A DNA stretch of 32,704 nucleotides from Thermoleophilia bacterium (GTDB lineage Bacteria > Actinomycetota > Thermoleophilia > Miltoncostaeales > Miltoncostaeaceae), in the NCBI GenBank assembly GCA_020848615.1, contig JADLHW010000118.1:1-32704 (forward strand). The letters are read 5' to 3'. Both the position numbers and the translations under genes were made by a program. The notes under the pieces are model-generated. The model searched no databases. It was not told the origin of the DNA and was given only the letters and a program-made list of their open reading frames with translations. Of this stretch, positions 1 through 8,415 are shown in pieces (within the stretch, counting starts at the first letter, position 1; every line of letters begins with the position of its first letter).

Positions 1-662
1 CCGGCGGAACCGGACCCCGAGCCCACCCACTTCTCCAGGGCCTCCCAGCCGGTCTTCCCGGACGGACCCGACGCGGCCGAGGCGGCGGGAGCGGCGGCGG
101 CCGAGGCGGCGGGAGCGGCGGCGGCCGAGGCGGCGGATGCAGCCGAGCCGGAGCCCGAGCCCACCCACTTCTCCAGGGCCTCCCAGCCGGTCTTCCCGGA
201 CGGACCCGACGCGGCCGGAGCCGCGGCGGACGACGCGGACCCGGCGGAGCCCGAGCCGACCCACTTCTCCAGGGCCTCCCAGCCGGTCTTCCCGGACGGG
301 CCCGACGCGGCCGGAGCCGCGGCGGAGGACGCGGACCCGGCGGAACCGGACCCCGAGCCCACCCACTTCTCCAGGGCCTCCCAGCCGGTCTTCCCGGACG
401 GACCCGACGCGGCCGGAGCCGCGGCGGAGGACGCGGACCCGGCGGAGCCCGAGCCGACCCACTTCTCGAGGGCCTCCCAGCCGGTCTTCTGACCCGGGCC
501 GCCGGACGCGATGGGGGCGCCGGAATCGGCGGACGGGGTGCTGCCCGGCGACACCCACTTCTCGAGGGCCTCCCAGCCGGTGGGAGCACCGCCGGCGGCG
601 GGCGGCGGGAACCGGAACGTGAGCGACCGCGGGGCGGTTCCCTCCTGCAGGCGGTGGGACAT
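1..662 (-). CDS. Tandem-motif protein with six GWEALEKWV helices on flexible linkers (3' end beyond window)
   Basis: I do not recognise this family. The visible 220 residues start MSHRLQEG, followed by a Pro/Ala-rich stretch, then six copies of TGWEALEKWV at about residues 28, 60, 92, 126, 158 and 204. Linkers contain only Gly, Ser, Ala, Pro and a few other residues, and most motifs are preceded by PSGK. No signal peptide or membrane segment is visible. The motif has the spacing of a short amphipathic helix with two tryptophans. The start is the ATG at 660-662, directly preceded by GGAGGAGG. The frame stays open to the left edge, so the C-terminus is unseen. It lies 124 bp downstream of rsgA with its own candidate promoter. 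The opposite strand is also open, but has no comparable start. A multivalent binding scaffold is an inference from the architecture only. Confidence 0.8.
   Translation of the reverse strand, partial: MSHRLQEGTAPRSLTFRFPPPAAGGAPTGWEALEKWVSPGSTPSADSGAPIASGGPGQKTGWEALEKWVGSGSAGSASSAAAPAASGPSGKTGWEALEKWVGSGSGSAGSASSAAAPAASGPSGKTGWEALEKWVGSGSAGSASSAAAPAASGPSGKTGWEALEKWVGSGSGSAASAASAAAAPAASAAAAPAASAASGPSGKTGWEALEKWVGSGSGSA
25..581 (-). repeat. Six in-frame direct repeats, 96-bp basic period
   Basis: The 29-bp core encoding the TGWEALEKWV motif occurs at 25-53, 163-191, 259-287, 361-389, 457-485 and 553-581. Spacings are 138, 96, 102, 96 and 96 bp, all multiples of three. The two copies nearest the start codon use CTC for the motif leucine and the other four use CTG, so the difference is synonymous. 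Linker DNA is also nearly identical between copies, which suggests recent unit duplication or gene conversion. Confidence 0.95.
76..136 (-). repeat. 24-bp tandem repeat inside the linker between motifs 5 and 6
   Basis: A 24-bp unit is present at 76-99 and 100-123, with a partial third copy at 124-136. It lengthens the Ala-rich linker without breaking frame and explains the 138-bp spacing of the last two motifs. Confidence 0.8.
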
Positions 663-703
663 CTCCTCCTCCAACCTTCTCTCCCGAACGACAGGGGTTC
701 TCG

Positions 704-761
704 CCGCACGGGGTTCGTGCGGGTGGTCACGAACCTACGGGTTGGCTCCGCACAGGGTCAA
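704..761 (-). promoter_or_regulatory. Candidate promoter and dyad operator for the repeat-protein gene
   Basis: On the minus strand TTGACC (756-761) is followed after 18 nt by TAGGTT (732-737), a plausible housekeeping-sigma promoter with its start point near 725. The -10 box overlaps an 8-bp inverted repeat, GGTTCGTG (712-719) and CACGAACC (728-735) with an 8-nt spacer, which looks like a repressor site. A second hairpin, CCGCACG (704-710) with CGTGCGG (716-722), falls at the predicted 5' end of the transcript and shares bases with the first dyad, so the two structures exclude each other. Confidence 0.5.
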
Positions 762-786: not shown

Positions 787-1629
787 TCACACGGTGTCCA
801 GGAGCCGCAGGTAGCTGTCCAGGCGGTCCGGGTGGACGCGCCCGACCACGGCGCATCCCGGCTCACCCGCATGCCTGCACCCACGAAAGCGACAGTCCCT
901 GGATGCTGCGGCGATCTCGGGGAAGCCGGCGCCCAGATCCTCAGCGTCCATCGGCGGCAGGTGGAACATGCGCACGCCCGCCGTGTCCACCACGGCGCCG
1001 CCGCCCGGCATGGGGATGAGCCGGGGGTCGCTGGTGGTGTGGCGCCCCTTGCCGATCTTGCGGCTCACCTCCCCCACGGCCCGGTGCACGCCGGTGAGCT
1101 CCTGGGTGAGCGACGACTTCCCCACCCCGGAGTGCCCGGCGAGGGCGGCGATGCGGTCGCCGATGAGCGACCGGATGCGCCGCACGAACCCCGGGTCGAA
1201 GGTGCTGCCCACCTCCACGGGGTACCCGACGTCCCGGTACACGGCCAGCTGCTCATCGAGGGCCGCGCGGTCCTCCACCAGGTCGAGCTTGGTGATCGCC
1301 AGGGCCGGCTCGAGGCCGCCGAGCGCCGCGGCGACCATGTAGCGGTCCACCAGGCGGGGACGGAAGGGGGGGTCCACGGCGGCGGCGACCACCAGCAGCA
1401 TGTCCGCGTTCGCGACCAGCGGGCGGGCCCGGTTCCGGCTGCCGAACTCCCCACGGCTCAGCAGCGTGCGGCGCTCGAGGATCTCCTCCAGGCGCGGCTG
1501 CCCCCCGCGCTCCACCAGCCGCACGTCGTCCCCGGCGACCGGGGGCCCCCCGGGCATGCGCGGCAGGATCGGCACCTCCAGCTCCCGGCCGTCGACGAGC
1601 ACCGAGGCACTCGGCCCCGACACGCGCAC
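787..1629 (-). CDS. rsgA: Ribosome small-subunit-dependent GTPase A (RsgA)
   Basis: RsgA is a circularly permuted GTPase that acts in late 30S subunit maturation, releasing assembly factors after GTP hydrolysis. The 280-residue product has the permuted motif order: an OB-fold N-terminus, G4 TKLD at 113-116, P-loop GHSGVGKSS at 165-173, the GRHTT switch at 195-199 and G3 DTAG at 215-218. The C-terminal zinc site is C246, C251, H253 and C259. The start is a GTG 16 nt after the pyrE stop, so the two genes are probably co-transcribed. The N-terminus is short for the family, but a TGA lies just upstream and leaves no room for an ATG or GTG start. Confidence 0.93.
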   Translation of the reverse strand: MRVSGPSASVLVDGRELEVPILPRMPGGPPVAGDDVRLVERGGQPRLEEILERRTLLSRGEFGSRNRARPLVANADMLLVVAAAVDPPFRPRLVDRYMVAAALGGLEPALAITKLDLVEDRAALDEQLAVYRDVGYPVEVGSTFDPGFVRRIRSLIGDRIAALAGHSGVGKSSLTQELTGVHRAVGEVSRKIGKGRHTTSDPRLIPMPGGGAVVDTAGVRMFHLPPMDAEDLGAGFPEIAAASRDCRFRGCRHAGEPGCAVVGRVHPDRLDSYLRLLDTV

Positions 1630-1645: not shown

Positions 1646-2209
1646 TCAGCCGTTCAGGAGCTCCCGCGCGGAGTAGAGCGCGAACAGCGGGGCGTCGCCG
1701 AGGATCTCCTCGATGACGGCCCGGCCGCCCTCCTCACGATCGATCACGACGAGGGCCGCCACGACCACGCCGCCGGCCTGGCGGGCCTTCTCGATGGCGA
1801 CGGCCAGCGACCCGCCGGAGGTGAGGACGTCGTCGATGACCGCGACGGGGGTGCCCTCCTCGATGAACGGCCCCTCGATCCACTGCTGCAGGCCGTGCTT
1901 CTTGCTCTCCTTGCGGACGAAGAACCCGGTGACCCGCTCCCCCGCGGCCCACGCCGCGGCGGACGCGGCGCACACCAGGGGGTCGGCGCCCAGGGTGAGG
2001 CCGCCCACGGCCCTGGGGCCGGTGGGGGCGAGTGCCTCCCATGCGAGCGCCCCGGCGAGCGCGGCGCCCTCGGGGTCCAGGAGCACCTGCCGGGCGTCCA
2101 CGTAGTAGGCGGACCGCTTGCCGGAGGACAGCACCACGGATTCGTGGATGACCGCGTGGTCCGTCAGGAGGGTGCGCAGCCGGTCGCGCCGCATGTTCGT
2201 CGTCGTCAC
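1646..2209 (-). CDS. pyrE: Orotate phosphoribosyltransferase
   Basis: The enzyme transfers phosphoribose from PRPP to orotate, giving OMP, in de novo pyrimidine synthesis. The 187-residue product has the PRPP-binding signature VAVIDDVLTSGGS at about 122-134 and the mobile catalytic loop around FFVRKESKKHG (97-107). The N-terminal substrate hood contains SGKRSAYYVDAR. The GTG at 2209 is preferred because the minus-strand hexamer TAGGCT (2218-2223) ends 8 nt upstream, which is the geometry of a leaderless promoter. An in-frame ATG at 2194 is the alternative. No strong Shine-Dalgarno sequence precedes either. rsgA follows in the same direction. Confidence 0.92.
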   Translation of the reverse strand: MTTTNMRRDRLRTLLTDHAVIHESVVLSSGKRSAYYVDARQVLLDPEGAALAGALAWEALAPTGPRAVGGLTLGADPLVCAASAAAWAAGERVTGFFVRKESKKHGLQQWIEGPFIEEGTPVAVIDDVLTSGGSLAVAIEKARQAGGVVVAALVVIDREEGGRAVIEEILGDAPLFALYSARELLNG

Positions 2210-5813: not shown

Positions 5814-5935
5814 TGTCAACGGCCACCGAAAAGTGCACCAGGATCGGCCAGCGAAAAGTGCGCCAGTCTCGCCGGGCCGCGACGCTTCCGGCCAGAGCAG
5901 GCGTGGCCCGGCGGCGGGCCCGTAGGGCCCGTTTG

Positions 5936-6742
5936 TTAGGTGCGTGCTGGCCCGGGTGTGGGTGGGGCCGGGATCTGGGCGGCGGGCACGATGCCGGTTC
6001 CGCGCTCGCGCAGGCGGTAGCTTTTGCCCTTGAGGCCGATCATGGTCGCGTGGTGTACCAGGCGATCGATGAGGGCGGCGGCCACCATCGCATCGCCGAG
6101 GATCTCGCCCCATTGTTCGAAGCCGCGGTTGCTGGTGATGATCATCGAGCCGCGTTCGTAGCGGCGGGCCACCAGGGCAAACAGCAGGTTCGCGGCCTGG
6201 CGTTCCAGGGGCAGGTAGCCGACCTCGTCGACCACCAGCACGCCGTAGCGCTCCAGGCGCCGCAGTTCGGCCTCCAGGGTGTTGCGCTGCTGGGCGGCCT
6301 CCAGGCGCGCGACCCAGTCGGCGGCCGTCGCGAAGGCGACCCGGTGCCCGGCATGGCAGGCCCGCATCGCCAGGGCGATCGCCAGGTGGGTCTTGCCGGT
6401 CCCAGGGGGGCCGAGAAAGCAGACGTTGGCGGCCTCGGAGATCCAGGTCAGCTGGGCCAGGTGCTCCACCAGGGGCCGCTCGGCAGAGGGCTGGGCGGCC
6501 CAGTCGAAGTCCTCCAGGGACTTCAGGGCCGGGAATCCGGCCGCGCGGATCCTCTGGCGCGCCCCCGAGGCGTCACGGGCAAACCCCTCGGCCTCAAGCA
6601 GGGCCTCCAGGAACTGCTCATAGGCCCAGCCCTCGGCGCGGGCCCGCTCGGCGGTGACCAAAAGGCGCTCGGCGATCCGGGGTGCCTTCATCTTGGCCAC
6701 CAGGTAGGGCAGCCGCTCACCTGTGGGCCCGCTCACCGGCAC
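5936..6742 (-). CDS. istB: IS21-family helper ATPase IstB
   Basis: IstB is the AAA+ ATPase that helps the IS21 transposase choose and remodel target DNA. The 268-residue product has Walker A GPPGTGKT at 111-118 and Walker B VLVVDEVGYLP near 168-178, with the usual IstB N-terminal helical part. The start is either the GTG at 6742 or the GTG at 6736, which overlaps the istA stop as GTGA. Overlap with istA is normal for the family. No frameshift or stop is seen, so it looks functional. Confidence 0.93.
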   Translation of the reverse strand: MPVSGPTGERLPYLVAKMKAPRIAERLLVTAERARAEGWAYEQFLEALLEAEGFARDASGARQRIRAAGFPALKSLEDFDWAAQPSAERPLVEHLAQLTWISEAANVCFLGPPGTGKTHLAIALAMRACHAGHRVAFATAADWVARLEAAQQRNTLEAELRRLERYGVLVVDEVGYLPLERQAANLLFALVARRYERGSMIITSNRGFEQWGEILGDAMVAAALIDRLVHHATMIGLKGKSYRLRERGTGIVPAAQIPAPPTPGPART

Positions 6743-7929
6743 AGCTCGGCATAGGGAGCCAGCTCAGGCGCAGCGACCCGGATCGCGGGAAGGATCGCCG
6801 GGGCCGGCGGCGGCGGCGGAACCGGACGCATCACCGGCGCCGGCAGCCAGGTGCCCGCCTGATAGCTGCGCGCATAGCGGGCGACCTCGACGCCGCGATG
6901 GCAGATCCAGACCTCATCACGGCTAAAGCGCAGATCGACGCGCTGATGCACCAACTCGGGCGGTGCCCGGTAGAAGGAGCCGGCGTGCTTGAGGTAGCCG
7001 TCGATCGGCACGCGCGTTTGCCGCTCGCCTGCCGGGTCAAAGCGCCCGGGCGGCAGCGCCCGCAGCGCGGCCCGCTCGGCCGCCAGACGCTCGCCGACAG
7101 GGAACCGGCCGGTGGCGTGGATGCGCACGTTGGCGATCCGATCACGCCAGTGGGCGTACTGCTCATCCAGATCGACAAGATCGCGGATCCGGCGTGCCGG
7201 CCAGAAGCTGGTCTTCAGATAACGCACCCCGGACTCCACCGAGCCCTTCTCGCGCGGTGTGGCCGGCGTGCACGCGTGGGCAGAAAACGCGTAGTGGCCA
7301 CGCAGATGGCTGAACCGATGCGCCCAACGGATCTGATCGCCCTCGCGGCGGGCCACGGCCGAGCGCAAGTTGTCATACACACACTCACCCGGCACCCCAC
7401 CCAGGAACTCAAAGGCGGCGACGTGCCCTTCCAGGAAACTCTCGACGGTCATGTCAAAACTGAAATGGGCGGTTTGTGCGCCCGAATAGGGCAAGGTCAA
7501 AACCAGCGCGTAAATGCGCCGCTCGGCCCCGAGGATCCGCGGGCGGCTGTCCATCTCGGCCCAGTCAATCTGGGCCACCTGGCCGGGGGCGTATCCGGTG
7601 CGCTGAGCCGCTCGCACCACAGGCGGGCGCAGCTCGCGAAGGCGCCGACGCACAACCCGCTCAGAACCCTCAAAACCATGACCGCGCAGGATCTCGGTCA
7701 TGCGCGGCGCATGGATGCGCGGCCACTCAGCAAGCACCTCACGCATCAGCGGCTCGTGGAGATCAAGCGCCGACCCCGCCGGCTCCCGCTCATAACGCGG
7801 CGGCTCCGGGGACGCCGCCAACCGCGCCACCGTACGCCGGTTCATCCCAAGCTGCCGGGCAACCTGCCGCTGGGACAAGCCCATCGCCACCAGCTCCCTG
7901 ACCTTCACCCACTCCATGATCGCCCGCAC
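6733..7929 (-). CDS. istA: IS21-family transposase IstA
   Basis: A DDE transposase of 398 residues. A helix-turn-helix lies near 8-36 (SQRQVARQLGMNRRTVARL). The rve-type core has D122 in QIDWAEMD, D186 in VYDNLRSAV and E232 in REKGSVESGVRYLK. The C-terminus has the beta-rich segment VHQRVDLRFSRDEVWICHRG seen in IstA proteins and ends in a Pro-rich tail. The start is the GTG at 7929 or the in-frame ATG at 7917. The gene is intact and precedes istB with a 10-bp overlap. Confidence 0.93.
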   Translation of the reverse strand: MRAIMEWVKVRELVAMGLSQRQVARQLGMNRRTVARLAASPEPPRYEREPAGSALDLHEPLMREVLAEWPRIHAPRMTEILRGHGFEGSERVVRRRLRELRPPVVRAAQRTGYAPGQVAQIDWAEMDSRPRILGAERRIYALVLTLPYSGAQTAHFSFDMTVESFLEGHVAAFEFLGGVPGECVYDNLRSAVARREGDQIRWAHRFSHLRGHYAFSAHACTPATPREKGSVESGVRYLKTSFWPARRIRDLVDLDEQYAHWRDRIANVRIHATGRFPVGERLAAERAALRALPPGRFDPAGERQTRVPIDGYLKHAGSFYRAPPELVHQRVDLRFSRDEVWICHRGVEVARYARSYQAGTWLPAPVMRPVPPPPPAPAILPAIRVAAPELAPYAELCR

Positions 7930-8055
7930 CTCCGACCCCTCCCACTCGCCGTCATCGACGATCCGGGCTTCGAGGCCACAGAGCCGATCACCTACGCGCG
8001 GGCTGGCGCACTATTGGATGGCCGATTCCGGTGCAGTATTGGGCGTCCGGCATCA

Positions 8056-8415
8056 CATTGTGGATGGCGAGGGTCAGATGCCGGGAGCCATGGACGGCGA
8101 CCTGGAGTCAGATCCAGGCAGGCGCAAGCCGTGGTTCCTGGGGCAAACGGCCCCGAACGCGCGCATACGGCACGGATACGCGAGTCGACCAGGCCATGAG
8201 AAGCCACAGGAGACGCCTCTCAGTACCGGAGAGGACGCTGATCCCGTTCAGGCGCAGAGCAGCCCATTGTGGATGGCGAGGGTCAGATGCCGGGAGCCAT
8301 GGACGGCGACCTGGAGTCAGATCCAGGCAGGCGCAAGCCGTGGTTCCTGGGGCAAACGGCCCCGAACGCGCGCATACGGCGCGGATACGCGAGTCGACCA
8401 GGCCATAAGAAGCCA
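8056..8415. repeat. 151-bp direct repeat, two copies
   Basis: Copies lie at 8056-8206 and 8265-8415 (offset 209 bp) and differ at only two positions. Each holds two potential hairpins. In copy 1, CCTGGA (8101-8106) pairs with TCCAGG (8113-8118), and GGGGC (8140-8144) pairs with GCCCC (8150-8154), extended by GTTC/GAAC around a 2-nt bulge. The 58-bp spacer also has a hairpin, CCTCTC (8216-8221) with GAGAGG (8229-8234). Similarity begins exactly at the base after the IS right end. No convincing gene overlaps it. Confidence 0.85.

Follow-up and report, generated by a model that had tools for sequence, protein, structure and literature searches.

The linker of the alpha-carboxysome, CsoS2, is a disordered chain whose short helical stickers each bind one copy of a site that recurs on a multimeric partner. 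GW182-type GW-repeat proteins are eukaryotic, present isolated non-helical tryptophans and have no membrane anchor. In pyrenoids, each helical sticker of the green-algal linker EPYC1 binds one Rubisco small subunit, and the diatom linker PYCO1 has helical tryptophan stickers that oligomerise (PMC10288592). The membrane-targeting amphipathic helix of MinD is weak alone and binds well in two or more copies (PMC6803595). Here we describe a repeat protein of the bacterial family Miltoncostaeaceae that belongs to the sticker-and-linker class in having several near-identical short motifs on linkers, the disorder of the linkers and the helicity of the motifs being assigned by prediction. We consider this protein rather likely to be a cytoplasmic, membrane-tethered, multivalent sticker-and-linker scaffold.

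The window is one whole contig (C118, 32704 nt) of a fragmented 3.64-Mb assembly (G000). The repeat-protein ORF lies on its minus strand, starts with an ATG at 660-662 and extends over 220 codons to the contig end (nt 3). It is left open at the edge because the contig stops inside the gene. The first-pass annotation had described a minus-strand gene with a ribosome site and six TGWEALEKWV units, which was confirmed (Table 1), with six as a minimum; the C-terminus and the 3' half are absent from the sequence of the window genome. In the translated ORF the units are separated by G/S/A/P-rich linkers, and at the DNA level Tandem Repeats Finder detected a 96-nt array with 92% match. The TGWEALEKWV pattern was found nowhere else in the 3.64-Mb genome, and a reversed control pattern gave 0 matches. 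The contig end at this gene was probably caused by the repeats breaking the assembly. Contigs likewise end in the repeat gene in G001, G010, G013, G015, G028 and others, and a locus that breaks assemblies is often truncated in genomes from metagenomes. A search of the window genome with a strict tail pattern and an ASCH bait did not find the 3' half, and in G015 the missing tail was recovered on a separate contig, just upstream of ASCH. Elsewhere in the window, an IS21-type insertion sequence occupies 5820-8049; its IstA-like (6733-7929) and IstB-like (5936-6742) ORFs, both on the minus strand and assigned by eye, lie between 47-nt terminal inverted repeats that are 79% complementary. Immediately next to one end of this element, a 157-nt sequence is directly duplicated (8050-8206 and 8259-8415) with 97% identity.

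Table 1. Features of the repeat-gene locus, in window coordinates.
Feature	Position	Strand	Basis
5' portion of the repeat protein gene with six motif units, cut by the contig end	3..662	-	ORF reading
N-terminal segment MSHRLQEGTAPRSLTFRFPPPAAGGAPT	579..662	-	ORF reading, comparison with relatives
Motif unit 1, TGWEALEKWV	552..581	-	Pattern search
Motif unit 2, TGWEALEKWV	456..485	-	Pattern search
Motif unit 3, TGWEALEKWV	360..389	-	Pattern search
Motif unit 4, TGWEALEKWV	258..287	-	Pattern search
Motif unit 5, TGWEALEKWV	162..191	-	Pattern search
Motif unit 6, TGWEALEKWV, last before contig end	24..53	-	Pattern search
Ribosome-binding site GGAGGAGGAG, directly upstream of ATG	663..672	-	Sequence
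Perfect inverted repeat GGTTCGTG-N8-CACGAACC, 8-bp arms, overlaps -10 and start region	712..735	-	Sequence comparison
Sigma70-like promoter TTGACC-N18-TAGGTT	732..761	-	Sequence, recurrence in relatives
rsgA (ribosome small-subunit GTPase), conserved upstream neighbour, separate unit	787..1629	-	Synteny
Orotate phosphoribosyltransferase (pyrE-like), conserved neighbour	1646..2209	-	Synteny

In relatives, complete genes consist of an N-terminus, either extended with R[FH].PP.AGGA or merely MSTKK, followed by 2-14 units and then a C-terminal helix. The RF.PP.AGGA portion of the N-terminal segment is common to the larger-genome genera and absent in genus g9. The repeat number thus varies between species, as had been anticipated from the window. 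No stop or frameshift corresponding to a position beyond the window edge was seen in relatives, where the genes run on to the conserved tail.

Among 163 units from 36 genomes, T1, G2, W3, E4, L6 and V10 were each found in 163/163, a count made with a pattern demanding V10; in a count of 137 units, V10 was present in 136, the exception being a unit of G025 with I10. Position 5 is A, S, D or E, position 7 is almost always D or E, position 8 is mostly K, and E4 is never replaced by D. Position 9 is W in 155 of the 163 units, H in 7 and Y in 1. The eight non-W9 units all come from genera g3, g5 and g8, in which every readable unit has H (one Y). These replacements are a concerted change by repeat homogenisation, possibly together with a partner. 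Units are 93% identical within genes vs 88% between genes, and within-gene homogenisation through repeat exchange inflates the apparent conservation. The linkers are 9-33 residues long, consist of about 70% G/A/S/P and are free to vary in length and sequence.

The codons of the motif vary (GGC/GGT/GGG, GAG/GAA, CTC/CTG/CTT/TTG, GTC/GTG/GTT/GTA). The 163 units comprise 78 distinct 30-mers, which encode 17 sense peptides but 73 in-phase antisense peptides, and therefore it is the sense protein that is under selection. The opposite strand or frame, which the first-pass annotation had kept in view as the possible conserved protein, was rejected as the coding one on these numbers. The same constraint bears on the idea that the gene is a functionless low-complexity repeat, or an antisense or assembly artefact. 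Such an artefact would suit a high-GC region in which all frames are locally open and the contig ends inside the repeat, but the coding constraint extends over 36 genomes, an RBS and promoter-like elements precede the gene, the synteny is conserved, and the gene is also present in single-contig and long-contig assemblies. We regard the probability of this idea as negligible; judged from the sequences compared, the comparative data already refute it.

Upstream of the repeat gene, the TTGACC / TA[AG]GTT hexamer pair recurs in most larger-genome relatives, and in g9 a TATGAT/TATGCT-type element occupies this upstream region. The inverted repeat is exact in some relatives and degenerate or absent in others, and G008 has an exact version with 7-bp arms. 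The element may serve as an operator for some regulator. The gene order runs in one direction throughout, with pyrE-like, rsgA, repeat gene, FBA aldolase (in g9), Nudix, ASCH protein, groES and groEL, and the repeat gene sits between rsgA and the Nudix/ASCH/groESL cluster in every assembled Miltoncostaeaceae locus. The Nudix/ASCH/groESL set is also found in other families of the class, there without the repeat gene. This set is ancestral in the class, and the repeat gene therefore joined a pre-existing housekeeping neighbourhood. Naming a partner gene by synteny was rejected, because Nudix-ASCH-groESL occurs without the repeat gene in other families, and the neighbourhood thus carries no information on function.

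The neighbourhood also argues against a multi-core, RiPP-like peptide precursor, in which the repeats would be cores that are freed from the linkers and modified. No maturation enzyme is adjacent to the gene, its neighbours being pyrE, rsgA, FBA aldolase, Nudix, ASCH and groESL. Near-identical short Trp-containing segments between spacers are what such a precursor would present, but the linkers contain no conserved leader or cleavage site, and the protein has a conserved membrane tail and its gene a core-genome position across the family. We therefore consider a precursor of this kind very improbable.

A motif search in related genomes located the gene throughout the Miltoncostaeaceae, and its restriction to one family had not been foreseen in the first-pass annotation. 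In the class search, 34 of the 42 genomes of this family (f1) match, and G008 additionally has a W-to-H form of the gene, interrupted by a contig end. As for the other seven genomes, the contigs of G036 and G034 stop at rsgA, G014, G020, G023 and G158 gave no rsgA match, and G022 has only a different rsgA copy. The locus is thus broken or unfound in these seven, and therefore no assembled locus lacks the repeat gene. Outside the family, the gene was not found in the 257 other genomes of the class, bar one weak match in G201, and there was no match in 385 genomes of the phylum from outside the family. The G201 match was rejected as chance; it lies antisense to a gene that, judged by eye from its sense strand, resembles an acetylornithine-type aminotransferase. 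No copies were found in viral contigs, plasmids or phages. The repeat gene is a lineage marker for Miltoncostaeaceae. In a set of public MAGs (L092, L094, L095 and L089), three are titled 'Bifidobacterium breve' and L089 is titled 'Acidobacteria bacterium'; they carry the Miltoncostaeaceae locus, and these names look wrong.

Across 11 genomes scanned, the motif was found in no second protein, with a single gene per genome, and the co-conserved genes with one motif copy that had been envisaged earlier did not appear. An extra pattern match in G012 encodes a different peptide and was rejected as a second motif protein. The repeat protein had been called undescribed, and indeed no relative above chance was found in Pfam, NCBIfam, PHROGs or PDB sequences. 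None of the papers in the library searched prints the motif.

For the window protein, AlphaFold2 predicted helices at residues 30-37, 62-69, 94-101, 127-136, 159-168 and 206-214, one per motif and none elsewhere. For the G029 protein (L053; 104 residues), helices at 8-16, 33-42 and 59-67 correspond to its three motifs, and a tail helix at 92-102 is the best-scored block (pLDDT about 83; pTM 0.18), with coil elsewhere. With a pLDDT of about 55, confidence in the models was low to moderate, in keeping with disorder. The first-pass picture of short amphipathic helices on disordered linkers agrees with these models, in which both the helicity and the disorder are predicted. According to the definitions of the capping box and the C-terminal glycine cap (PMC4515027), T1-x-x-E4 would form a capping box, with T as the N-cap and E at N3, while the glycine that follows V10 would act as a C-terminal glycine cap. 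Capping could account for the invariant T1 and E4, which would leave W3, L6, W9 and V10 as an exposed binding face. The motif helix with this hydrophobic W3-L6-W9-V10 face has a moment of 0.57 and a net charge of -1.

The product of every complete gene has a basic amphipathic helix at its C-terminus, except that of G011 (one species). The tail is GGGFMG[FW]LKRLFGGK or one of the close variants GLVAALKRLFGGK, GFWDKLKAFFSGK and GFMKWLKGLFGGGEK, and the GFLKRLFGG found in G012, G025 and G019 is identical to the C-terminus of E. coli MinD (KKGFLKRLFGG). The HeliQuest lipid-binding discriminant is D = 0.944 x moment + 0.33 x charge. In our own computation with this formula, D was 0.98-1.68 for all 20 tails; for 137 motif units the mean was 0.33, and 7% of them exceeded 0.68 but none 1.34. 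Therefore the tail, and not the repeats, looks membrane-binding, the hydrophobic moment of the G-rich tail being only modest. These values weigh on the alternative that each unit is itself an amphipathic membrane-binding helix and that the protein lies flat on a membrane or lipid droplet, attached at multiple points. The W/L/W/V face with its moment and the membrane-binding sequence of the tail are consistent with such a coat, but the negative net charge and low D of the motif are not, and the off-face residues T1, G2 and E4 are invariant, with D never in place of E4. A coat of this kind seems distinctly improbable.

In G011, a hydrophobic segment of about 30 residues (19-residue Kyte-Doolittle maximum 3.27), a tail-anchor-like transmembrane helix, takes the place of the tail. 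This swap is independent support for the view that selection keeps membrane tethering. There is no obvious signal peptide at any N-terminus (e.g., the MSTKKTGWE... starts), and therefore the chain is most likely cytoplasmic. A stalk-like variant was observed in G007 and G016 (L042 / L112), where a long stretch that is charged and helix-like stands in for the final linker ahead of the tail (SEKVSEVVDNLRDKANEAATELKEDLAKIRENLPEYQDKLEEKGRG in G007).

In the mechanism that we propose, each TGWExL[DE]KWVG unit would be a self-contained, capped helix of roughly two turns, and 2-14 such helices would be strung together by disordered G/A/S/P linkers, each 9-33 residues long. A single membrane-targeting sequence like that of MinD, namely the basic amphipathic helix at the C-terminus (GFMGFLKRLFGGK type), would anchor the protein to the inner face of the membrane. 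By docking either to a site repeated on a partner or to each other, the stickers would concentrate that partner at the membrane. We infer the docking, the in-cell membrane tethering and the clustering from these features. The multivalent scaffold suggested by the first-pass annotation is still the best reading, and its free chain becomes one tethered to the membrane by a C-terminal helix that lies outside the window.

Because the MinD helix binds well only at two or more copies (PMC6803595), membrane binding by the repeat protein may depend on clustering, and may switch on once the stickers cluster several chains. We tentatively suggest a stricter form, in itself somewhat unlikely, in which the MinD-type helix binds the membrane only after the stickers have clustered chains on a multimeric partner, giving a condensate or microdomain unique to Miltoncostaeaceae. 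If this holds, the change of W9 to H/Y in all units of a gene would mirror a corresponding alteration of the pocket on the partner, and the repeat protein would organise the inner face of the bacterial membrane in a way that defines the family.

The W3-L6-W9-V10 faces might instead pack together, in which case the protein would build a membrane-bound condensate or meshwork by itself and need no dedicated partner. All units of one gene switch W9 together, as expected for unit-unit contact, but repeat homogenisation or a change in a partner would produce the same concerted pattern. The motif is missing from other proteins, and the stickers of PYCO1, which oligomerise via a tryptophan, provide a precedent (PMC10288592); a 10-residue helix, however, is a weak homotypic module, and we regard such self-association as unlikely. 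For the tethered scaffold that we favour, the natural variation in unit number (2-14), interface residue (W/H/Y) and anchor type offers a ready-made test of valency and anchoring in bacterial membrane clustering.

Among the known systems, GW182-type proteins resemble the repeat protein in having a disordered chain with repeated Trp docking points. EPYC1 and CsoS2 share with it a disordered chain carrying several short helical stickers; however, no sequence similarity to them was found, and the repeat protein has a membrane anchor. A link to Rubisco or to microcompartments was rejected, as neither Rubisco (PF00016; 0/12, with positive controls detected) nor the BMC/carboxysome shell (PF00936; 0/12) was found in 12 family genomes. 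The C-terminal basic amphipathic helix is a likeness to MinD and FtsA, with GFLKRLFGG the same as in E. coli MinD, but the repeat protein has no ATPase or any other folded domain and carries a single tail on a disordered chain. It was rejected as a MinD, since its chains consist of repeats, linkers and tail and the window protein gave no Pfam or NCBIfam match for a deviant Walker A ATPase domain. With PYCO1 it shares uneven linkers and a short helical motif that is repeated, contains a critical tryptophan and is limited to essentially one protein (PMC10288592). The motifs differ (KWSPRGGS vs TGWExLxKWV), PYCO1 has two sticker types whereas there is one here, and PYCO1 has Rubisco as its partner and no reported membrane helix. 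Its design is simple, with free linkers between capped Trp helices and a tail of the MinD type. We rate this uncatalogued protein, known to date from a single bacterial family, as a new family within an established general type, the sticker-and-linker scaffolds.
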